37,009 nt of DNA from Lachnospiraceae bacterium (GTDB lineage Bacteria; Bacillota; Clostridia; Lachnospirales; Lachnospiraceae): the NCBI GenBank assembly GCA_017938485.1, contig JAGBBM010000004.1, forward strand, positions 1 through 37,009, given 5' to 3'. The notes under the pieces were generated by a model. It did not search any database. It saw only the letters and a list, made by a program, of their open reading frames with translations, and was not told where the DNA came from. Positions 4,257 through 33,062 of the stretch are shown here, piece after piece. A program made the position numbers and the translations under genes. How positions within the stretch are numbered: the stretch's first letter is position 1; every line of letters begins with the position of its first letter.

Positions 4257-7200
4257 TTATTCCTGTGTAAATGTGTAGTTTCCATCTTCACTTACATAGA
4301 AGGTAGTATTGCCTGAATAGCTAGTACTATCACCCTCTACCTGCCAATTACCTTCGGCGAAGGTGTATGCCTGATTGGCAACTAGCTTAACCAGGTCACC
4401 AGCAGGTATGACGCCTGCCTTTGTCCACTCAGAAGCAACTGTAACAGTTTTTACTGACATATTACCTGCCTTATCCCAAATCTGGATTGTGTACTGAGTA
4501 ACACCACCCTCTGAGTCAAGAGTGAGTTTATTACCAAGGGAATTTAGTTCCTGAGCAGTAATAATTGTGTCATTTACCATAACTCTTACTATGTCACTAT
4601 CTGAAAGTGCAACATCCACTGAATCGCTGTAATAAACTTGGTTGTCGGTAAGGTTAATTATAGGTGCATCAGTGTCTACATCAAAACCGTTAAGAGCTAT
4701 GCCAGCAGTCATTTCGCCAGTTTCAATCTTTTTAAGGTAGATTACGCCATCATCTGTAGTGGCATCAAAAACAAGCTTTTCCTCATATCTGCCGCCTAAG
4801 GTATCTGATATAAGATAACCTTCCTTTGCAGTAACTGTTACCTCTGAGGTATAGATGTCATTTTCTCCCATAGTACCTGTAATAGTGTATGCATCCTCAG
4901 GCACATCTAAGTAACTGATAGTAAAGTCATCTGTAACAATAACCTCTTTGTATATGCTGTAGGCTTCAAATATAGCTTTTACAGTGTAGGTGCCTACCTG
5001 AGTAGGAACTGTGCTGGTATATGTTGTATCATCTGCTGAAGCCTCCTTGTAAAGGATGGTGACATTGTCACTTTTGTTGGTGGATGACTCAATAATTGGT
5101 GAAACCAAAAGTCCCATCACCACATCCTTAACAGTAACACTTGCAACACCATTTTCAAAATCCTTTATCTTAAAGGTGTCAGTTGCAACAACTTCATCGT
5201 AAATTAGTGTTGCAGGGAATGTAGCTCTTACATCGTAGCTTCCCACTGCAGTTGGTTTTACAGTTGTATATTCTGTATCGCTTGTAAGCTTATACTCAAT
5301 AATTGCATGGGCAATTCCGTTTTTGTCAGAGGTTAAAACAGGAGTAATCTCGGTTCCAACATAGACATCGTTAACGGAAATACTTCCATCACCCAAAAGG
5401 TAATTTATCTCAAAGGTTGTAGCAGCAACTGCCTGAGTATGTGATATAGTTGCAGGGTAGGTAACCCTCGCGTCGTAGCTACCAACAGCGGTTGGAACAG
5501 TTGTTGTATATGCTGATTCATCCTGGCTTGTAAGCTTATATTCTACAGTAGGAGTAGAAGTATTAGTAGATGATGAGTACTGTGGGTTAAGTGTCTCGCC
5601 GTAGGAAATATCTGTCACGGTGATGTCGGCAATACCTTCCTCAAGCTCCTTTATCTCAAAGGTGTCAGTTGCAATAACTTCGTCGTAAATCAGTGTTGCA
5701 GGGAATGTAGCTCTTACATCGTAGCTTCCCACTGCAGTTGGTTTTACAATTGAGTATACGGTGTCAGTTGTAAGCTTGTACTCAATAATTGCATGGGCAA
5801 TTCCGTTTTTGTCAGAGACTAAAACAGGGGTAATCTCAGTTCCAACATAGACATCAGCAACAGAAATACTTCCCTCGCCTGGGAGATAATTTATATTAAA
5901 GCTTGTAGTTTTAACAGCTTCTTTATGTGATACAGTTGCAGGGTAGGTAACCCTTGCGTCGTAGCTACCAACAGCGGTTGGAACAGTTGTTGTATATGCT
6001 GATTCATCCTGGGTTGTAAGCTTATATTCTACAGTAGGAGTAGAAGTATTGGTGGATGAAGAATACTGTGGGTTAAGTGTCTCGCCGTAAGAAATATCTG
6101 CCACGGTAATGTCAGCAATACCCTCCTCAAGCTCTTTAATAGAGAAGCTGTATGTCTGAGAATAAGCACCATAATCATAAGTTGCAGGAAACTCAACAAG
6201 AGCAGTGTAGTCGCCAATAGCAGTTGGTTTTACAGTTGTATAGGCTTCGTCTCCATCTGTATTTTTCTTGAATTTCACAGTTCCAGCGGCGGTATCGTAT
6301 TCCGTAGCCGTACCAAAGGTATATGAAACCTCCTGACCTACATATATATCTGGAATTGTAAAAACAACGGTTCCCTCAGACAGAACTGATGGACTTGTCA
6401 AGGTGATTCGAACTTCTCCGTTTAAAACATCTACATCAGCTCCAGAAACAGTATATGATATGGATAAAATATTATCAGTCTCTGAATATGTAACATTAGG
6501 AGTTCCTGAACCATTGCAGCTGTCAGTCACAGTTGCAAGGTAATCAGCTGTGATTCCATATCCAGGAAGTAATTTGTACTGCACGGAGCTAATTGTGTCA
6601 TTATGCATATAATAAGAGGATAAACAAGAATTATCAACCAAAGTAAGCCCTGTACTATTTGTATCAATTACGTTTAGTTTGATACCACATACCTCATCCA
6701 TTCTTCCCGATACACCAGATAAGATGAATTCTTTTCCTTCGCATGTGACAATGACATTTACATTCTCAGATATGGATACATTTGTGCTTCTAGATACTGT
6801 AATACTACCTGATTGAGTAAATGTATATGTCCCTTCAAAGCCAGAGATAGATAAGCTGTCGGTAACAGTTATATTTGAAATATCTATTTCTCCATTTGAA
6901 ATAGATAATGTTCCTACTGTTCCACCTGTAAGAGTGCAAGGTACATTAGTTGATGATATCGCTGCAATTGAGCCAGAGTTATTAATAACGAATTCTGCAG
7001 CGGAGTTATCTGTTAAGGTTACATTTCCCGAAATGGTTCCATTATTATTTATTGTGGAAGTGTTTTGATAAAAATTCGTAGCTGTAGATATATTACCTGA
7101 TAATACCACACCTTCATTAATGGTTAGGATGGGAGTGTCCAGCATACCACCGCTCATTATATAGTTATTACTGGTATCGCTATCAACAGTTACAGTTCCC

Positions 7201-7322
7201 CCAACCGCAATATCCTCTGCCATAGCAATTATAGGTTTAAAGCATGGCATATTACACATCATAATTCCTGCAAGTAAAACAGCAAGTATTCTTTTTGCTT
7301 TTTTTCTAATAAATACTCTCAT
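4257..7322 (-). CDS. Large secreted repeat protein with beta-helix-like N-terminus
   Basis: This is an exported protein of 1021 aa. The start was chosen at the second in-frame ATG (7322), because GGGGGA lies 7 nt upstream of it and the ATG at 7337 overlaps that site. A signal peptide follows (MRVFIRKKAKRILAVLLAG, cleavage near AMA/ED). Residues 40-300 are Ser/Thr/Asn-rich and resemble a beta-helix with repeated TISGN/SISG turns. Residues 310-790 hold about six 75-85-aa beta-sandwich-like modules with recurring VPTAVGSYDARVTYPAT-type strands. The last 200 residues contain a Big/cadherin-like DTDAPIINLTDNQVYYSDS segment. No LPxTG-like signal or C-terminal TM is visible, so it may be released or held non-covalently. 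The ligand is unknown. It is transcribed away from the plus-strand surface operon, with an operator-like inverted repeat at its start. Confidence 0.8.
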   Translation of the reverse strand: MRVFIRKKAKRILAVLLAGIMMCNMPCFKPIIAMAEDIAVGGTVTVDSDTSNNYIMSGGMLDTPILTINEGVVLSGNISTATNFYQNTSTINNNGTISGNVTLTDNSAAEFVINNSGSIAAISSTNVPCTLTGGTVGTLSISNGEIDISNITVTDSLSISGFEGTYTFTQSGSITVSRSTNVSISENVNVIVTCEGKEFILSGVSGRMDEVCGIKLNVIDTNSTGLTLVDNSCLSSYYMHNDTISSVQYKLLPGYGITADYLATVTDSCNGSGTPNVTYSETDNILSISYTVSGADVDVLNGEVRITLTSPSVLSEGTVVFTIPDIYVGQEVSYTFGTATEYDTAAGTVKFKKNTDGDEAYTTVKPTAIGDYTALVEFPATYDYGAYSQTYSFSIKELEEGIADITVADISYGETLNPQYSSSTNTSTPTVEYKLTTQDESAYTTTVPTAVGSYDARVTYPATVSHKEAVKTTSFNINYLPGEGSISVADVYVGTEITPVLVSDKNGIAHAIIEYKLTTDTVYSIVKPTAVGSYDVRATFPATLIYDEVIATDTFEIKELEEGIADITVTDISYGETLNPQYSSSTNTSTPTVEYKLTSQDESAYTTTVPTAVGSYDARVTYPATISHTQAVAATTFEINYLLGDGSISVNDVYVGTEITPVLTSDKNGIAHAIIEYKLTSDTEYTTVKPTAVGSYDVRATFPATLIYDEVVATDTFKIKDFENGVASVTVKDVVMGLLVSPIIESSTNKSDNVTILYKEASADDTTYTSTVPTQVGTYTVKAIFEAYSIYKEVIVTDDFTISYLDVPEDAYTITGTMGENDIYTSEVTVTAKEGYLISDTLGGRYEEKLVFDATTDDGVIYLKKIETGEMTAGIALNGFDVDTDAPIINLTDNQVYYSDSVDVALSDSDIVRVMVNDTIITAQELNSLGNKLTLDSEGGVTQYTIQIWDKAGNMSVKTVTVASEWTKAGVIPAGDLVKLVANQAYTFAEGNWQVEGDSTSYSGNTTFYVSEDGNYTFTQE
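5161..6132 (-). repeat. Two tandem 486-bp repeats inside the secreted protein gene
   Basis: Segments 5161-5646 and 5647-6132 are near-identical direct copies with a period of 486 bp (162 codons). Each encodes a pair of about 80-aa modules. Landmarks such as GGTGTCAGTTGCA and CTCAAGCTC recur exactly 486 bp apart. Differences are scattered point changes without frameshift, so the duplication is fairly recent and kept in frame. Confidence 0.88.
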
Positions 7323-7373
7323 AATATATTCCCCCATTAAGTTTACATGAACTTTATAAGTACCTTTAGTTAC

Positions 7374-8120: not shown

Positions 8121-11100
8121 ATGCTTAAAAATCTAAAAAAGGTCTTGGCTGGGTTACTCACAGTAATTATGGTAGTATGTCTATTGCCTGAAAATATCAT
8201 GATATCCCATGGCCAAGAAGAAACAATCCACACACTTACCGAGCAGATTGTAATTAATAGCAGCAATCTTAGTACATATGATAATACTACTATCACAGGT
8301 ACATGTGTGTTTTCTGACGATGATGACTTATCTAGTCGCCCCGGAATAACCATAGATGGGGTAGAAGTGCATTTAACAATAAGGGATTTGAATATTGAAA
8401 CGAAGTTTTTTAATGACAATGATCCGGCACCAATAGCTTTGAGAAACGGAGCTACTCTGTATCTTACAGTTGAGGGAGTGAATATATGTGATGTAAATAG
8501 ATCTAATGCTGCGGGAATCAGCGTGCCGAAAGGATGTACTCTTATAATTACAGATGCTTCAAGTGGTACTCTGAAAGCGTTTGGAGGCAATTACTATGGT
8601 GGAGGAGCAGGAATCGGGGCTCCGGGTAATGGCTACTATGTAGCAAATGGAATTGATACTTCTAGTACTACAACCACTTATACTTGCGGAACAATTATAA
8701 TCAATGGTGGAACAATTCAGGCGCGTGGTGGTACACATAAAGTAAATGGTACGCCGATGTTAGGTGCTGCAGGTATAGGAAATTCTTCTCCTGGACACTA
8801 CACTAATGAAGATGATGTAGATTTTAATAATATGGGAACCGGTATAATAGAGATTAATGGAGGTAACGTAGAGGCCTCTGGTGGAGCTGGTGCAGCTGGA
8901 ATAGGTGGAGGAGATTGTAATAGTGTAGAAAGCATATCCATTAACGGAGGTACAATTAACGCAACCCCTGGTAGTGGGGGTGCTTCCATAGGAATGGGAT
9001 CTTGGTTAAAAGATGGTTCATACACATATAATACAGTAATATCTATTAATGGTGGAAATGTCACTGCTAATGGTAATATAGGTTACGGTTCGTATAATAT
9101 AAACGAATCAAAGGGAAATGGTACACTTTCCGGTGGTAGTGTAAATATTGAAGATGAAGCTGAATTAAATATAAGCGGAGCCATTAGACCAAACACCAGT
9201 AACTGCAAAGGTTATACTGTTAATGTTTCCTTAAATGATAAGGTATTAAATGAAGAGAAGAATATAACTGCAATGGTGGAAGTGGATGGTATAACTCGAA
9301 CTGCCGAATACACCTTAACACCTACTAACTATAATGTTTCATTTGGTATGAATTGCTATATGAATGATACCAACATAGGAAAAAATGCTAAAATTACCAT
9401 CTCAGATGGTACTAATACATGGTCGAAGGAATTTATATTAGCACAGGATAATAACTTGGAAATAGGGAAGAAAATGTATCCGGTAACCCTTAAGGTTTCT
9501 TCTCCAAACTTGACACAGAATCTTTCGGAAAATGACTATATCTTGACTATTACTGATTCGGAGGGGAATCCGGTATCTAATGATTATGTTGTAATGGAAC
9601 CGGGATTAAATTTCGATGGAACAATTGGTCGTATTCGTTTTTTTGTTGCAAATGGCGAATACAGAGTTAGCTTCCAAACGGATAGCTTGAATAATGGCGA
9701 GTCTGTATCCAAGGAGTTGACTGTGGATAATCAGGCAACGGAGGTTGATCTTCATTTAGATATAATAACAATAGATTATAATTTGGATTTATATTATGGA
9801 AACATTGAAATAGGATATAAAGCAAATGGTGGATATGTAAAGTATTCAGATTCAGAAGGTGAACATACGGATTCATATTTAAGCCCTAATACATTATTTA
9901 ATATCAATCAGAGCAATAATGATGATACAACAGCTAATACAGTAGCTATTAAGAGTTGGGACAGTGAGACACCTGTAAATATTAATATTGATAGTATAAA
10001 TATTAGCACAGATGAAAAAGTTAATATTGACATAGGACAGAATATACAGGTCAACCTTACTCTTAAGGGAGAATCAAAGCTAGCCTGTGACAATGAAGAT
10101 TACACATATTACTCAGTAGTGAAAGTACGTACTAACAGTATATTGAATATCAATGGAACAAGCGCAGATAAGCTTAGCATGTACAATGACCAAAGTAGTG
10201 GATGTATTGAGTTGTCTGATAGTACTGTGAATATAATGAGTGGTAATATTGAAGCAACATCAAATGGACGTGCGGCGACTATAGGAAGTAACGAAGGAAG
10301 TCATGTTACATTCAACAGTGCGAAAGCAACAATAAATATATATGGTGGTACTGTTAAGGCATCAAACGCATATTTGGGTGCAGCCATAGGAAGCGGGCAG
10401 TTTGCAGATGCGTTAGTAAATATATCTGGTGGAACTATTAAAGCATCAAATACAGTTGATGGACTAGTTGATGGAGCAGCTATAGGTAATGGTTATGGAG
10501 GTAATGCAACACTCTATATAACCGGCGGTAACATCAACTCAAACAAAACAGTTACAGCGACAAACGGAGAGGCTAATGGAAGTAAGACTCTTGTATGCAA
10601 AGAACTTACCATTCAGGGTGTTGATAATGATATACCAATAACGGATGCAGATAATATCCCTGAGTACTACGGTTTGAATGATGTAAAGACCATAGACGGA
10701 AAGCTTTACCTGTATCTGCCGGAAGATGCAACCTTGCCTAAAAATATATTATCTGGTGAGGATAACTATATTCAGCATATGACAGAGGATACTAAGTATA
10801 TATCACATGAGCATATTTTAGGATATACAATAAATGGTACTAGTATTACTGAGAACTGTGCTGGATCAGATGTGTGTGGCACGGCTCCAAGTACCATTAC
10901 CCTTTCTGACCCGGATGCAAACGGGGCACTTGTGTATAACGGAGCAGCCTATGAGGCAGAAACAACCGGAACACTTTCCTCAGGTGCAACAGCTTCTGTT
11001 GAGTATACATCACTGACCGGAGGTGTAAGTCTCGTAGATGGTAAGGCAGTAAATGCAGGTGATTATAGGGCAACTATGTATTTGATTGATACTGAGGGTG

Positions 11101-12983
11101 ATAAAATCAAGGATGGAAATAATAACCCTATATCTGTATCAGTGGAATTTACCATTGAAAAAGCTACACTTACTGTAACAAGCTATACTGCAGAGGATAG
11201 AGCTTTTGATGGGACAGATGATATACAGGTGACAGAAGCTACACTTAGTGGTGCTTTAGGCAATGATATAGTAACTATACAGTTGCCTGTTACAGCAACT
11301 TTGGTGGATGAACAGGGAGAGCCGCTTATCGGTGGTGTTGCAGATGTTACTGATAATGGCTACTCTAAGGTGTTGCTTCCTACCCTTGCATTGACAGGTG
11401 ACGACAAAAATAATTATATCTTAGAACAACCAAGTGGCGCAGTTTCTTTATCATCAAATGTTATGATTAAAAAGGCTGAAGCACCTATGTTACCGGAGGA
11501 AAAGAAAACCTATACCTACGGACAGACTCCTACAGTAGAACGCTATAGTATTAGCCTTCCTGAGGACTGTGGGGATATTTCTTATTCATTTGAAGAAGAT
11601 GATTCAGATAATATAATCTCCAATATCGTTGTAAGTGATGAGGGTGTATTAACTTATGATGTGGAAAAGGTAGATGAATATACTGATGAGATAACAGCAA
11701 CTGTTACAGTAACTGCGGTTATGGATAATTATAAGGATGCAACCTTTACATCAAGTATTACAATTACAGATAAGAAGATTCAGACATTGAATGCAGAGGA
11801 TATTTCAATGACCTATGGCGATGAGGGAAAAACTATTTCACTTTCCGGCAATCAGACTCAGGTGTCATATAAAGTTGTTGAGAATCCTGAGCAGGATAAA
11901 ACTGTAGTGACTGTGGATGCAAACGGTAAGGTTAGCATTGTAAATGCCGGAACTGCTATCATTGAAATTAAAGCTGCATCGAATGATATATATGCGGAAG
12001 CAACCTGTCAGATAAAGGTGACTGTTGCTCCAAAGCCTGCATACATCACCGCTAAGAGCTATATAATAGCTGAGAAGGATGAACTTCCTTCTGTCTACGA
12101 ATATGATGTAGAGGGACTTGTTAGTGGTGAAAAACTGTCTCAGGATATGAAGGATAGCATTAAGGCAGCAACTGGTGTATCAGATAGTAACAAAACAGGT
12201 GATTATGAAATTACTATAACTGGTCCTACTCTTTCAGGAAACTATAGCCTCTCATATGCAAGTGGAAAGCTTGCTATTCTTCCTGCTGATGAAGCTCCAT
12301 TTATCATGGGTGATGATGGCAAGATGGGCTGGGATGCTATCAGTGATGAAATTGATGATGCAAAAGCCGGTGACGAAGTAGTGGTTGATATGAACGGAGC
12401 TACAGTAGTACCGGGAGATATCCTCGAGGATGTAAGGGATAAGGATATTACCATTTCCTTTAAGTTTGATAATGGATTAATCTGGACTATCGATGGCGGA
12501 ACAATAACTGATGGTGACATTGGTAATATTGATTTCGGTACAACCATTGAGTCAGAGGATAATCCTCTTAATAATATTCCTGTAGATGTAATAAATAATA
12601 TTACAGGGGAGAAAAGTACTATAGAGGTTAATCTGGCATACTCAGGTGAGTTTGGATTTACAGCAGTCCTTACAACCAATCTTAGTAGTGCCAATGCAGG
12701 ATACTATGCAAACCTGTTCTACTACAATCCTACAACCAAGGAATTGGAGTACGTGTGTGCGGATGTGATAGCAGGTGATGGAACAGCCGAGCTAACATTT
12801 ACTCATGCATCGGATTATGTTATCGTAATTGATGATGTGGATTTGGGAAATGTTAAGGAAGCAACTACGCCTGATTCTAATGCGAATACAGGAGATGCAA
12901 CTCCACTTATGGCACTTGCATTCATGCTAATGTTAAGTGGCACATTATTGGTTGCTATGAGTAGAAAGAAAAAAGAGATATAA
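8121..12983 (+). CDS. Giant cell-wall-anchored beta-helix/MBG-YDG surface protein with NTGD sorting signal
   Basis: This 1620-aa surface protein has a GGGAGGAA ribosome binding site 8 nt before the ATG. Order: signal peptide (1-32); Gly-rich beta-helix repeats (about 60-330) with turns such as INGGTI, INGGNV and GAAGIG; a beta-sandwich stretch (about 335-540); a second beta-helix block (about 640-800) with IYGGTV/ISGGTI turns; a YDG-type domain (about 1010-1125); Big/MBG-type modules (about 1130-1390); and a C-terminal sandwich ending FTHASDYVIVIDD. The C-terminus is NANTGD, a hydrophobic span (MALAFMLMLSGTLLVAM) and SRKKKEI. This is the architecture of a sortase substrate, with a degenerate pentapeptide in place of LPxTG. 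It probably mediates adhesion or binds polysaccharide, but no catalytic site is recognised. No sortase gene is in the window. Confidence 0.85.
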   Translation: MLKNLKKVLAGLLTVIMVVCLLPENIMISHGQEETIHTLTEQIVINSSNLSTYDNTTITGTCVFSDDDDLSSRPGITIDGVEVHLTIRDLNIETKFFNDNDPAPIALRNGATLYLTVEGVNICDVNRSNAAGISVPKGCTLIITDASSGTLKAFGGNYYGGGAGIGAPGNGYYVANGIDTSSTTTTYTCGTIIINGGTIQARGGTHKVNGTPMLGAAGIGNSSPGHYTNEDDVDFNNMGTGIIEINGGNVEASGGAGAAGIGGGDCNSVESISINGGTINATPGSGGASIGMGSWLKDGSYTYNTVISINGGNVTANGNIGYGSYNINESKGNGTLSGGSVNIEDEAELNISGAIRPNTSNCKGYTVNVSLNDKVLNEEKNITAMVEVDGITRTAEYTLTPTNYNVSFGMNCYMNDTNIGKNAKITISDGTNTWSKEFILAQDNNLEIGKKMYPVTLKVSSPNLTQNLSENDYILTITDSEGNPVSNDYVVMEPGLNFDGTIGRIRFFVANGEYRVSFQTDSLNNGESVSKELTVDNQATEVDLHLDIITIDYNLDLYYGNIEIGYKANGGYVKYSDSEGEHTDSYLSPNTLFNINQSNNDDTTANTVAIKSWDSETPVNINIDSINISTDEKVNIDIGQNIQVNLTLKGESKLACDNEDYTYYSVVKVRTNSILNINGTSADKLSMYNDQSSGCIELSDSTVNIMSGNIEATSNGRAATIGSNEGSHVTFNSAKATINIYGGTVKASNAYLGAAIGSGQFADALVNISGGTIKASNTVDGLVDGAAIGNGYGGNATLYITGGNINSNKTVTATNGEANGSKTLVCKELTIQGVDNDIPITDADNIPEYYGLNDVKTIDGKLYLYLPEDATLPKNILSGEDNYIQHMTEDTKYISHEHILGYTINGTSITENCAGSDVCGTAPSTITLSDPDANGALVYNGAAYEAETTGTLSSGATASVEYTSLTGGVSLVDGKAVNAGDYRATMYLIDTEGDKIKDGNNNPISVSVEFTIEKATLTVTSYTAEDRAFDGTDDIQVTEATLSGALGNDIVTIQLPVTATLVDEQGEPLIGGVADVTDNGYSKVLLPTLALTGDDKNNYILEQPSGAVSLSSNVMIKKAEAPMLPEEKKTYTYGQTPTVERYSISLPEDCGDISYSFEEDDSDNIISNIVVSDEGVLTYDVEKVDEYTDEITATVTVTAVMDNYKDATFTSSITITDKKIQTLNAEDISMTYGDEGKTISLSGNQTQVSYKVVENPEQDKTVVTVDANGKVSIVNAGTAIIEIKAASNDIYAEATCQIKVTVAPKPAYITAKSYIIAEKDELPSVYEYDVEGLVSGEKLSQDMKDSIKAATGVSDSNKTGDYEITITGPTLSGNYSLSYASGKLAILPADEAPFIMGDDGKMGWDAISDEIDDAKAGDEVVVDMNGATVVPGDILEDVRDKDITISFKFDNGLIWTIDGGTITDGDIGNIDFGTTIESEDNPLNNIPVDVINNITGEKSTIEVNLAYSGEFGFTAVLTTNLSSANAGYYANLFYYNPTTKELEYVCADVIAGDGTAELTFTHASDYVIVIDDVDLGNVKEATTPDSNANTGDATPLMALAFMLMLSGTLLVAMSRKKKEI

Positions 12984-29839: not shown

Positions 29840-31906
29840 ATGAACGAGAGTTTATTGTTACCTTTATTAGTTTTTCTACCTTTCCTTGGAACATTGATAT
29901 CCTATTGTATAGGTAGAAAAAATGAATTGGCAAGAGATATATTTGCCTGGGTTTTGGTTATAAGCGAGTTTGCTGTTACAATGGGACTATTTCTTATGTA
30001 TAACCAAAAAGTGGGCCAGGAAGCTATTCTTGATTGCTACATTCCTGAGATATGTGGTATGGGAATAGGCTTTACCTTAGATGGCTTCAGGCTGATATAT
30101 GTAATGATAGCGGCACTTATGTGGATGATGACTACTCTCCTTTCAAGAGAGTATTTTGTCCATCACGAAAATAGAAATAGATTCTATACCTTTTTCCTCC
30201 TTACTTTAGGTGCAACTATGGGAGTGTTTTTATCTGCAGATTTGTATACTACATTTATCTTCTTTGAGATAATGTCCTTTACATCTTATGTGTGGGTTGC
30301 CCAGGAAGAAAATGGGGAATCCCTTAGGGCAGCAGCTACCTATCTTGCAGTGGCTATTATCGGTGGATTGGTTATGCTTATGGGCATATTCCTTCTTTAT
30401 AACCAGCTTGGAACTGTGAAGATAAGTGAGCTTATGGAGGCTGCAGCATCAACCAACAATGAGACTTTGTTATATAGTGTTGGTGTGTGCTTGCTTGTGG
30501 GCTTTGGTGCAAAAGCAGGTGCATTTCCACTTCACGTATGGTTGCCAAAGGCACATCCTGTTGCTCCGGCGCCAGCTTCAGCACTTCTTTCAGGTATACT
30601 TACCAAGACCGGTGTGTTTGGCATATTGGTAGTAAGTAGCAATATGTTCTTCCATGACCCTCTTTGGGGAAAGCTAATCCTTACCCTTGGAGTTATAACT
30701 ATGTTTGGTGGAGCATTGCTAGCGGTATTTTCTATAGATTTAAAGAGAACCCTTGCCTGTTCCTCTATGTCCCAGATAGGATTTATAATGGTGGGTATAG
30801 GTATGCAGGGAATCATAGGAGAGGATAATGGTCTTGCGGTGGATGGAACCTTTGTACATATGATAAACCACTCCCTGATTAAGCTGCTTCTCTTTATGAT
30901 ATCCGGTGTTATATATATGAATGCCCACGCTCTTGATTTAAATGCTATAAGAGGCTTTGGAAGAAAGAAGAGGCTTATCAAGGTGCTGTTTTTAATAGGT
31001 GCCCTTGTTATTGCGGGAATTCCTATGTTTAGCGGATATATCAGCAAAACCTTGCTCCATGAAAGCATAGTGGAGTATCACGGTGGAACTATATATACGG
31101 TGATTGAGTGGATATTCCTAGTAAGCGGTGGTCTTACCCTTGCTTATATGACTAAGCTTTTTGTGGCAATATTTGTAGAGAAAAACAAGGACGAGAAGCT
31201 TCAAGCAAAGTATGATGAGAAGAAAAAATATATGAACCCTATAAGTGGAATAGCAGTGACCGTAAGCGGAATTATACTCTTTGTATGGGGACTTTTCCCT
31301 CACGCTGTTATAGAGAAGGTTGCAGCTATGGGAGATAAGTTTATGCACTTTGTAGGGCACAGACATGAGGTTCACTATTTTAACTGGATAAACCTTAAGG
31401 GGGCAGTTATAACCCTTGTAATCGGCTCTTTGGTATACTTCCTAATTATAAGATTGCTTCTTATGAAGGAAGGTAATTATGTAAACCGCTGGCCAAAATG
31501 GTTTGATATGGAAAATCTCATATATCGCCCAATACTTCTAGGCGTGTTTCCATTTATAGGTGGTGTAATTGCGAGAGTATGCGATAGCTTTATGGATACT
31601 GTGGTGGTTATTCTAAGAAAGACGATTTATAAAGATACACCTACTAAAACTGAGCGAATCGAAGGAAATGTTGTGACAGATTTCCTTGGAAATATAATGA
31701 ATTTCTTCACTGGACTGGTGGCGAAAATCAAGAGAAATATTACAGGTAAAGAACCTGCAATTAAGAAAGATTATGTGCATATACTTGCGGTTAGATATGA
31801 TGAGTTTAAGGAGGATGCACTGGTTATAGGCAGAAGCCTTTCCTTCGGATTTATGCTTCTTGGCATAGGACTTGTATTAACCCTCATCTACATAATCCTT
31901 ATATAA
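29840..31906 (+). CDS. Long NuoL/HyfB-type antiporter-like subunit 4 (Mrp-like operon)
   Basis: This 688-aa protein is the longest antiporter-like subunit. The 14-TM core carries Glu143 in IFFEIMSFTS, Lys225 in FGAKAGAFPLHVWLP, Lys256 in ILTKTG and a Lys in GYISK. The AHPVAPAPASALLSGIL loop is of HyfB/EchA/MrpD type. The C-terminal extension of about 190 aa contains another TM (about 515-535), WPKWFDMENLIYRPIL, an amphipathic stretch and a final TM (about 663-687). This pattern resembles the lateral helix of NuoL/HyfB/EchA proteins, which clamps neighbouring subunits. Such long subunits belong mainly to energy-converting hydrogenase complexes, yet no hydrogenase or quinone-type gene follows here. 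It ends the operon. Confidence 0.87.
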   Translation: MNESLLLPLLVFLPFLGTLISYCIGRKNELARDIFAWVLVISEFAVTMGLFLMYNQKVGQEAILDCYIPEICGMGIGFTLDGFRLIYVMIAALMWMMTTLLSREYFVHHENRNRFYTFFLLTLGATMGVFLSADLYTTFIFFEIMSFTSYVWVAQEENGESLRAAATYLAVAIIGGLVMLMGIFLLYNQLGTVKISELMEAAASTNNETLLYSVGVCLLVGFGAKAGAFPLHVWLPKAHPVAPAPASALLSGILTKTGVFGILVVSSNMFFHDPLWGKLILTLGVITMFGGALLAVFSIDLKRTLACSSMSQIGFIMVGIGMQGIIGEDNGLAVDGTFVHMINHSLIKLLLFMISGVIYMNAHALDLNAIRGFGRKKRLIKVLFLIGALVIAGIPMFSGYISKTLLHESIVEYHGGTIYTVIEWIFLVSGGLTLAYMTKLFVAIFVEKNKDEKLQAKYDEKKKYMNPISGIAVTVSGIILFVWGLFPHAVIEKVAAMGDKFMHFVGHRHEVHYFNWINLKGAVITLVIGSLVYFLIIRLLLMKEGNYVNRWPKWFDMENLIYRPILLGVFPFIGGVIARVCDSFMDTVVVILRKTIYKDTPTKTERIEGNVVTDFLGNIMNFFTGLVAKIKRNITGKEPAIKKDYVHILAVRYDEFKEDALVIGRSLSFGFMLLGIGLVLTLIYIILI

Positions 31907-31933
31907 TCCCACCAGAACGGATTACCTATAAGG

Positions 31934-32289
31934 TTCAGCATCCCATTTTCACACTGCACCACTCGTAGATATAAACAGGGTATGTAGAAAACACGCTCTC
32001 GCTCGTCTCACACGCAGGAGTACTAAGGTTCTTACCTGACATAATATATAGGGCATAAGAAAACCGTTTGAACACGCGGGCACTTAGCTAAAAAAGATAT
32101 GGAGCAGATTTTAATCTGTTCCATATCTTTTTTGCTTAGTACCCTTGCGTAGTGAGACGAGCGAAAGCGTGTTTTCACTATGCCCTATATATTATGTCAG
32201 GTAAGAACCTAAGGACTCGCGTGTTCAAACGGTTTTCTTATACCCTGTTTATATCTACGAGTGGTGCAGTGTGAAAATGAGAGGCTGAA
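31934..32289. repeat. Block-shuffled inverted repeat around a terminator
   Basis: The gap between the Mrp-like operon and the lipoprotein gene (31907-32390) is non-coding and holds this structure. Left blocks: A 31944-31983, B 31987-32010, C 32026-32056, D 32057-32078. Inverted right copies: B' 32153-32176, C' 32180-32210, D' 32218-32239, A' 32240-32279. A (40 bp), C (31 bp) and D (22 bp) match perfectly; B (24 bp) has one mismatch. Reading inward, the left order is A-B-C-D and the right is A-D-C-B. TTCAGC/GCTGAA extends the outer ends (31934, 32289). Each junction carries short shared sequences (AGGGTAT or AGGGCAT on one side, TTAG or CTAAG on the other). Confidence 0.9.
32086..32135. terminator. 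Central bidirectional terminator of the Mrp-like operon
   Basis: A 21-bp stem (32090-32110 against 32113-32133, one G-U pair) has six A residues on the left and six or more T residues on the right. It lies at the centre of the shuffled inverted repeat and can stop transcription from either side. Confidence 0.88.
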
Positions 32290-32325
32290 TCATATAAAAA
32301 TCCACATTGGGTGGAAAGAAAAATC

Positions 32326-32354
32326 TTGATAATTGGGTGGCGTGGTGCTATAGT
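32326..32354 (+). promoter_or_regulatory. Promoter of the lipoprotein gene
   Basis: TTGATA (32326-32331), a 17-bp spacer and TATAGT (32349-32354), with TGC just before the -10, form a good promoter with an extended -10. The expected start near 32361 leaves about 30 nt before the ATG. Confidence 0.75.
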
Positions 32355-32390: not shown

Positions 32391-33062
32391 ATGCGTAGAA
32401 TTAAGAAATTAGGTTCACTTATGTTAATTGCTGCACTTGCATTTTCACTTTGTGCATGTGGCAAGGATGAGGACACAAAAAAGGAAGATAAAACAGAAAA
32501 GGAGTCTGTAGTGGATACTACTGAGGAGTCAAATAAAGATGACGAAGTAGTTAAGGATGACGAGGAAAGCGTAGATGGTTCAATGGATGAAGCTGCTGCT
32601 GAGATGATTGGAACAGACATAAAGACTTGTAAGACTATAAAGACTGCTGTTGAAGTGGCTTTAGGCAATGAAGGCTTCTTTACATTACTTACTTATGGTG
32701 GAAATGGAGTTGTTATAGAACTTACACCGGGTGGAAAAGATGCTACAGCTGTAAATATTGTTGGAGCTGATACAGAGGTAACATTTAATGATTTTTCAAA
32801 CGAACAGTTAAGAGAGAATTTAACAGAAGAGATTTTAACTAATATAGGTACAGAAATCCCTGCAATTCAGTATGCTGCACAGCTTGATGGTTCATCTGAC
32901 GAGCTTGCTATGTATTATGTATATGTTTCAGATAAGGGAACTGTATATGTATACCTTGCACCTGCAGGAAAGACTATGGATGATTTACTTGCTGATGCGG
33001 AGGGAGACGGAATATACGTGATTACTCCAGAAACAGCAGCTGAGTATGAGGCGTATAAGTAA
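32391..33062 (+). CDS. Putative lipoprotein of unknown function
   Basis: This 223-aa protein starts at ATG 32391 with TAGGAGG 10 nt upstream. The N-terminus RRIKKLGSLMLIAALAFSLC ends in a lipobox-like L-C-A-C, so it is probably lipidated on Cys22 and held on the outer face of the membrane. A linker of about 45 residues very rich in Asp, Glu and Lys follows (KDEDTKKEDKTEKE), then a compact domain from about residue 70 to the end with alternating strands and helices (GFFTLLTYGGNGVVIELTPG, AMYYVYVSDKGTVYVYLAPA). I do not recognise the domain. The ddh gene starts 49 nt downstream without a terminator, so read-through is likely, but a functional link is not evident. Confidence 0.75.
   Translation: MRRIKKLGSLMLIAALAFSLCACGKDEDTKKEDKTEKESVVDTTEESNKDDEVVKDDEESVDGSMDEAAAEMIGTDIKTCKTIKTAVEVALGNEGFFTLLTYGGNGVVIELTPGGKDATAVNIVGADTEVTFNDFSNEQLRENLTEEILTNIGTEIPAIQYAAQLDGSSDELAMYYVYVSDKGTVYVYLAPAGKTMDDLLADAEGDGIYVITPETAAEYEAYK

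Follow-up and report, generated by a model that had tools for sequence, protein, structure and literature searches.

An inverted-repeat locus in a Lachnospiraceae genome is probably a two-unit member of a family of dispersed, non-autonomous, RNA-folding elements that insert into the tips of hairpins. Within the window—the whole 37,009-nt stretch of DNA analyzed—four inverted block pairs (A–D) flank a tip stem, T, and the order of B and D is exchanged between the two sides (Table 1). The window sequence confirms this arrangement, which the initial annotation had described. The window also holds two large repetitive open reading frames, at 4257–7337 (−; 1026 aa) and 8121–12983 (+; 1620 aa), which by eye look like surface proteins.

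Table 1. Features of the window locus, with sites of an additional hairpin in related copies
Feature	Position	Strand	Remarks
Upstream gene	29840..31906	+	Presumably an Mrp-type antiporter subunit; stop codon 20 nt ahead of the hairpin arm
A, left outer arm	31927..31983	.	93% complementary to 32240–32296; private to the window copy
Outer unit, B side (block B and tail)	31985..32026	-	Three-way-junction motif in sense on −
Block B inverted pair	31987–32011/32152–32176		
Outer-unit mini-hairpin GC-GAGA-GC	32002–31995	-	
C, left strand of the stem linking outer and inner unit	32027..32057	.	
Inner unit (D, tip stem, B′)	32056..32178	+	Three-way junction with GNRA mini-hairpin
Block D inverted pair	32057–32078/32218–32239		
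T, tip stem A6...T6	32090..32133	.	21-nt arms, 2-nt loop
Inner-unit mini-hairpin GC-GAAA-GC	32161–32168	+	
C′, right strand of the outer–inner linking stem	32179..32209	.	
Outer unit, D′ side (block D′)	32210..32239	-	
A′, right outer arm	32240..32296	.	Inverted pair with 31927–31983
Promoter-like TTGATA-17-TATAGT	32326..32354	+	Just past the element, ahead of the next gene (ATG near 32391)
Extra ~45-nt hairpin	L122:856–1022		
Extra ~45-nt hairpin	L089, near 6620–6670		
Extra ~45-nt hairpin	L072, near 4430–4480		

The blocks are predicted to form one continuous structure. A script counted 41/42 pairable positions in A, 24/25 in B, 31/31 in C, and 22/22 in D. The 382-nt strand has a predicted folding energy of −221.6 kcal/mol, compared with −87.1 on average (SD 5.5) over 100 shuffles (z −24.3); in this prediction A-B-C-D-T-B′-C′-D′-A′ forms a single rod of ~380 nt. 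In the best fold, A-A′, C-C′, and T nest together and no B-B′ pairs are used; the partner of the B tail is D′, and that of the B′ tail is D. B-B′, C-C′, and D-D′ are each complementary, in keeping with the earlier proposal of a 3′ RNA switch that chooses among three long-range folds, each excluding the others; the coexistence of A-A′, C-C′, and T, together with the cost of enforcing A+B (−201.9 kcal/mol, 20 worse) or A+D (−192.8 kcal/mol, 29 worse), contradicts that exclusivity and leaves the switch highly improbable. By eye, T looks like a bidirectional intrinsic terminator; a terminator scan restricted to loops of 3–8 did not list its stem. The promoter-like site downstream agrees with 10/12 consensus positions, in a scan that gave 3 sites where 2.1 are expected by chance.

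Single-unit copies in relatives reveal B and D to be the two sides of one three-way junction. Along the unit strand, the ~100-nt unit runs from a closing helix (P1) through ACCGU... into P2, where GGUACUUA...UUAGUACC leads to the tip stem, and then into a mini-hairpin (P3; 2 bp and a four-base GNRA loop) before P1 closes. The window holds two such units, the inner one in sense on the + strand and the outer one in sense on the − strand. The tip of the outer unit contains the inner one in reversed orientation, hence the exchange of B and D (A-B-C-D versus A-D-C-B): The two blocks are sides of one folded unit rather than the interchangeable cassettes first suggested, and inverted nesting explains their order. 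A covariance model built from 28 units, including several genus genomes and the window copy, scores the inner unit at 88.8 bits, a match by construction since that unit is among the 28 model sequences; the outer unit gives a partial match at 31985–32074 (−), 23.8 bits.

Nesting with alternating orientation recurs in other copies. All 36 hairpins with two recognized motifs, a count that leaves out hairpins whose degenerate second motif was missed, carry one motif per strand, so nested units alternate in orientation. Other genera also hold unit pairs side by side, in opposite orientation and non-nested (G177, loci L209 and L243; G269, loci L235–L237), making nesting one arrangement among others. 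Several further structures were observed in or near units. In two genomes, an extra hairpin (GTCCTCAGG...CCTCAGGAC) is inserted into the 3′ side of the unit, at an identical point in both (Table 1). Within the clade of G006, another repeat (GGGCGCATATGAA...TTCATATTTAGGATGCGCCC and variants) breaks or replaces the 3′ half of the unit at L165, L171, L179, and L191. Internal loops of the form NUGAG/CGAAN recur, by eye, at several levels of the nested stems (tip/arm junctions of L232 and L110) and would form tandem sheared G-A pairs.

A DNA search of the source assembly (2.43 Mb, 137 contigs) recovered 12 full copies with the same architecture, the window's included, plus 1 partial copy; covariance-model matches add single units on further contigs. 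Each full copy forms one nearly continuous hairpin, at −169 to −260 kcal/mol over both strands. The layout is thus neither chance nor a one-off assembly error, and the initial annotation's "dispersed modular repeat family" is upheld. An assembly artefact or one-off event, to which fragmentation into 137 contigs lends some color, is very unlikely—for the artefact, to the point of being negligible—given the same layout at 12 places here and in other genomes.

The copies of this genome fall into subgroup I (8 copies) and subgroup II (4 copies), and their segments differ sharply in conservation. For the inner D side, pairwise identities have a median of 1.00 within I, 0.98 within II, and 1.00 across the two; the corresponding medians are 0.97, 0.93, and 0.82 for the outer B side and 0.62, 0.58, and 0.55 for the A arm, where shuffled sequences give 0.57. 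A single kind of inner unit therefore occurs within outer units of two kinds, and within arms private to each copy. Between copies the A arms bear no resemblance, yet inside each copy they are complementary: Across 24 doubles (two-unit copies) from several genomes, 1029 of the 1129 aligned pairs between an arm and its own partner are Watson–Crick, with 26 further gap positions. The window's A arm has no counterpart in the 11 other full copies of its genome, and A, taken earlier for a common module, differs in sequence in each copy. Shared cores in private arms require nested insertion and/or gene conversion; that much of the earlier "recombination product" stands.

Beyond the source genome, DNA searches of that genome and 60 relatives gave matches in 25/61, all in the same genus. 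Of the 37 genus genomes, 22 contain the pattern CGAGCGARAGCGNGT, which was found at 202 places in total; the reversed control gave 3. The covariance model, scanned under strict filters with 16 candidates scored per genome, matches 22/246 genomes of the order. Within the family it matches 21 of the 33 genomes listed, in 10 genera, a figure which rests on the 204 unlisted misses belonging to other families, an assumption that the ordering of the list favors. The sole match outside the family, in one genome of the order (G221, locus L247; E 4e-4), is doubtful and was rejected as a member, as it folds as a plain palindrome. Matches at L056, L069, and L083, comprising two Opitutia contigs and including a Clostridia contig, were also set aside: The Opitutia ones lie inside long open reading frames, form no rod, and were attributed to chance, and L083, one of the three loci, has no unit of the family's form and was treated likewise.

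Searches of phage and plasmid collections gave no match to window positions 31968–32255 at E 1e-5. Against Rfam, the window had no match, the 12 loci of the source genome gave only weak matches below the gathering score, and 18 further loci yielded only TwoAYGGAY, outside the element. That TwoAYGGAY RNA (RF01731, 85 bits) lies at L216:1228–1389 (−), ~110 bp from a unit.

Three lines of sequence evidence bear on whether the fold itself is under selection. In 32 single copies from the clade of G006, G026, and G035, 23 of the 43 predicted pairs show double changes that keep pairing. A second set of 45 distinct rows, drawn from 37 partly overlapping sources, contributed nothing to the model and comes almost entirely from other genera. 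In it, 93.8% of cells are paired, against 67.8% in shuffles, and the covariation score is 0.676, against 0.187 in shuffles, in an alignment that was fitted to the model and so leans towards the structure. The mini-hairpin loop is of the GNRA type in 44 of these 45 rows (including GCAA and GCGA), which were retrieved by a model trained on GNRA loops, and in 31/32 clade copies; the series comprises GAAA, GAGA, GCAA, GGAA, GGGA, and GCGA.

Mispairs in the arms provide the third line: If both DNA strands were affected alike, G·U and A·C should be equally frequent. Read on the unit strand, the same 32 copies (53 matches, less 8 that did not have both ends of the unit and 13 near-duplicates) have G·U:A·C mispairs of 54:23; isolated mispairs alone give 30:12 (P = 0.008), and removal of L114 and L180, each one member of an orthologue pair (L111/L114, L180/L190), gives 48:22 (P = 0.003). 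Other genus genomes give 45:20 (P = 0.003) in the 29 copies kept after leaving out 2 graded "far D," 3 "weak," 7 "no D," and near-duplicates. For the 24 doubles, from which 1 "no D" and near-duplicates had been dropped and in which L057, L112, and L128 aligned almost nowhere, the A arms oriented by the outer unit give 38:21 (P = 0.04), and the C arms give 10:7, a non-significant asymmetry. The G·U excess implies selection on one folded strand.

On this sequence evidence, covariation, the GNRA loop, and the excess of G·U over A·C together show that the predicted folded strand is selected for pairing. Single-stranded DNA would likewise favor G·T, which makes RNA likely rather than proven; the selected strand is most likely RNA. 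The complementary arms might instead be a by-product of template switching at quasi-palindromes, with the fold unselected. Paired changes with few intermediates are what such a process would leave, and one core pair is G-C in 22 and A-U in 10 of the 32 copies with 0 one-sided changes; it predicts neither the G·U excess on the unit strand nor the conserved asymmetric junction and GNRA loop, and we regard it as a poor candidate, to be given little weight.

Gene context was summarized separately for each class of element. The 37 multi-unit hairpins—the 36 with both motifs plus 1 contig-end fragment—lie between convergent genes in 28 cases, between tandem genes in 4 (+/+) and 3 (−/−), and in unclassed positions in 2; the window copy is one of the tandem-gene cases. 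In 23 of the 28 convergent cases, the base of the hairpin is ≤50 bases from both stop codons. Single units of the G006 clade are in sense with the preceding gene in 29/32 cases. One-motif hairpins elsewhere in the genus (n = 44, some holding a degenerate second unit) divide into 18 convergent, 12 antisense, 6 sense, and 8 with one side unclassed. Model matches outside the main genus set give 20 sense, 11 convergent, 8 antisense, 1 divergent, and 6 unclassed among 46 distinct matches, which remain from 55 after removal of 9 whose place was already counted under another locus, include one in genus genome G027, and are in some cases mutual orthologues.

Divergent gene pairs account for 3/159 positions overall (20 with one side unclassed), against 30/208 adjacent pairs in a background drawn from loci fetched for holding elements. 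Their rarity indicates that the element stays clear of promoter regions and occupies transcribed positions, though not always in sense. For tandem genes of the genus outside the G006 clade, the split of 6 sense and 12 antisense fits poorly with a function in the mRNA. Should transcription end at tip T, a single RNA would not contain both halves of a hairpin. Element sites include gene ends and the interior of operon-like gene rows (fab genes, feoA–feoB, and the region upstream of pfkA).

Comparisons among species bear on how nesting arises. At feoA–feoB, G006 and G035 have a common outer palindrome with different inner hairpins, and G026 is without either; in one relative, a short tandem repeat (CAGGTTATCTGATTTCAAAA-like; L147) fills this gap. 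In two G034 copies (L089 and L124), an old tip stem, AATTGCC/GGCAATT, now flanks a different hairpin, with remains of an older unit on one side of it. Upstream of pfkA, the "empty" site of G035 keeps one arm and so looks like a deletion. No good full match to the site of the window copy was found among the 37 genus genomes: Its upstream gene matches G021 over 235 bases (73%) and three others over 35–39 bases, too sparse to provide an empty site.

The fabH–fabK–fabD region provides the fullest comparison. G265 has two copies 1.1 kb apart, flanking fabK on both sides, with cores identical at 109/112 bases and different complementary arms. In G299, which is 92% identical around fabK, the first site holds a 6-bp stem with a 12-nt loop; the second is without the element and has a small A/T palindrome beside, not around, the insertion point, so insertion at the second site was not into the tip of that palindrome. 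A RAGG-like direct repeat is seen by eye at one fab site only, and the genome comparisons caught no insertion in progress and established no consistent target duplication. The fab intergenic regions (L249–L278) also carry a second conserved frame, GATGAG-stem-CGGAYTAGAGG, before the next gene start; it holds different hairpins in several species and is possibly another structured family.

The principal competitor to tip insertion is vertical inheritance of ancient RNA structures, in which the arms change by compensated drift and gene conversion keeps the cores alike from locus to locus, without transposition. Consistent with it, the two G265 fab cores (3/112 differences) are closer to each other than to the orthologous cores of G283 and G290, orthologous positions are occupied in several species, and compensated changes between orthologous arms are seen by eye; the two fab arms may be distantly alike (ACTAG...GATAG), so they may have drifted under gene conversion. 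Against it, two species often each carry a hairpin at an orthologous site, but the hairpins are unrelated throughout, at flank identities of 83–94% (L047/L089, L072/L124, L121/L088–L066), which could reflect repeated insertion or other turnover; in addition, the second fab site of G299 is without the element, and unit number varies. Weighing these points, we hold vertical inheritance with core conversion to be unlikely, if still of appreciable weight. We conclude that tip insertion together with deletion explains most of the observations, with gene conversion of cores as the main rival.

Each unit is predicted to fold on one strand into P1, a P2 reaching the tip stem, and a P3 with GNRA loop, a prediction supported by covariation. 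The folded strand may act as RNA at gene 3′ ends and between operon genes, probably as a terminator, stabilizer, or processing structure. Under the tip-insertion model, units would spread as non-autonomous elements, with new units preferring the tips of existing hairpins, and the older hairpin would remain as the private complementary arms, A; palindromes may also be lost by deletion. More tentatively, and at somewhat less than an even chance, the family may be one of self-nesting mobile elements that target hairpin tips, their own included, each new unit landing inverted in the preceding one, such that a gene-end hairpin grows from inside while its older stem becomes private arms—without a Y1 transposase or, in several genomes, a detectable reverse transcriptase.

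Candidate movers were sought by domain. Y1_Tnp (PF01797) is present in 8/37 genus genomes and was not found in element-bearing G000, G006, G036, G011, G015, and G001, where G006 is one contig, 99% complete, and the other genomes are drafts that may miss genes. RVT_1 (PF00078) is present in 14/37 genomes, with one each in G006, G026, and G035, and was not found in G000, G034, G036, G015, G001, G005, and G029. REP-type and retroelement routes are thus unsupported in several element-bearing genomes, and derivation from a group II intron or retron was rejected on the lack of a detected reverse transcriptase in the seven genomes named. A further candidate, a transposon consisting of two oppositely oriented units ~1.1 kb apart in other genera and a gene between them, was also rejected: The intervening genes are ordinary (by reading, fabK-like, deacetylase-like, and sugar-nucleotide-reductase-like).

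Among known repeats, MITEs (BOX/RUP, ERIC, Correia) are short, non-coding, dispersed, and folded. Several copies in G036, G011, G034, and G001 resemble them in sharing, by eye, an outer GGGGCTGTCGCACTAA-like end. Unlike MITEs, the 12 copies of the source genome share no sequence beyond the unit ends and have private arms, and a candidate parental transposase was not found (Y1_Tnp and RVT_1 sought). Like bidirectional intrinsic terminators, the elements have an A6...T6 tip stem and many copies between convergent genes; they differ in their ~400-nt rod, their conserved junction, and the occurrence of single units between tandem genes as well.

The family resembles REP/BIME/REPIN sequences in being intergenic, palindromic, mosaic, and present in many copies of alternating orientation—the criterion for BIMEs, found here in 36/36 two-motif hairpins. 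REP/RAYT systems, according to the available text of PMC3733652, are based on a 20–40-bp palindrome or hairpin with a GTAG or CGTC tag at one end, and some REPs are insertion-sequence targets, with one set inserting precisely at the axis of the palindrome (PMC1525189). A REP/BIME-like DNA hairpin mobilized in single-stranded form by a Y1 (RAYT/TnpA) transposase would account for the alternating, intergenic, hairpin-forming units, and a strand-specific fold with G·T over A·C suits single-stranded DNA as well. By contrast, the unit here, at ~100 nt, has a three-way junction and an RNA-like series of GNRA loops in place of the 20–40-bp palindrome of that text (PMC3733652), units nest in each other's tips with copy-private complementary arms, and PF01797 was not found in six element-bearing genomes; we consider movement of this kind improbable.

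A survey of the human microbiome lists 3161 candidate structured RNAs, and 230/250 of its palindromic intergenic candidates are predicted terminator stems; its four described examples are, in the available text, mostly or entirely from Bacteroidetes, unlike the Lachnospiraceae family here, with nesting undescribed (PMC8040213). A fragment of the unit may already be among those 3161 anonymous candidates. The available portions of the literature on such repeats and RNAs (PMC8040213, PMC11109978, PMC3733652, PMC1525189, PMC2267715) contain no description of the family that we could find.

The family would constitute a large class, not represented in Rfam, of folded elements in the intergenic regions of Lachnospiraceae. 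Its inverted nesting, together with complementary arms that are private to each copy, suggests targeting of hairpin tips, which in the available sources we did not find described in such a form for other interspersed repeats. The elements would make a convenient test case for the spread of structured repeats when no transposase is evident, and for a possible role of such repeats in defining mRNA ends.
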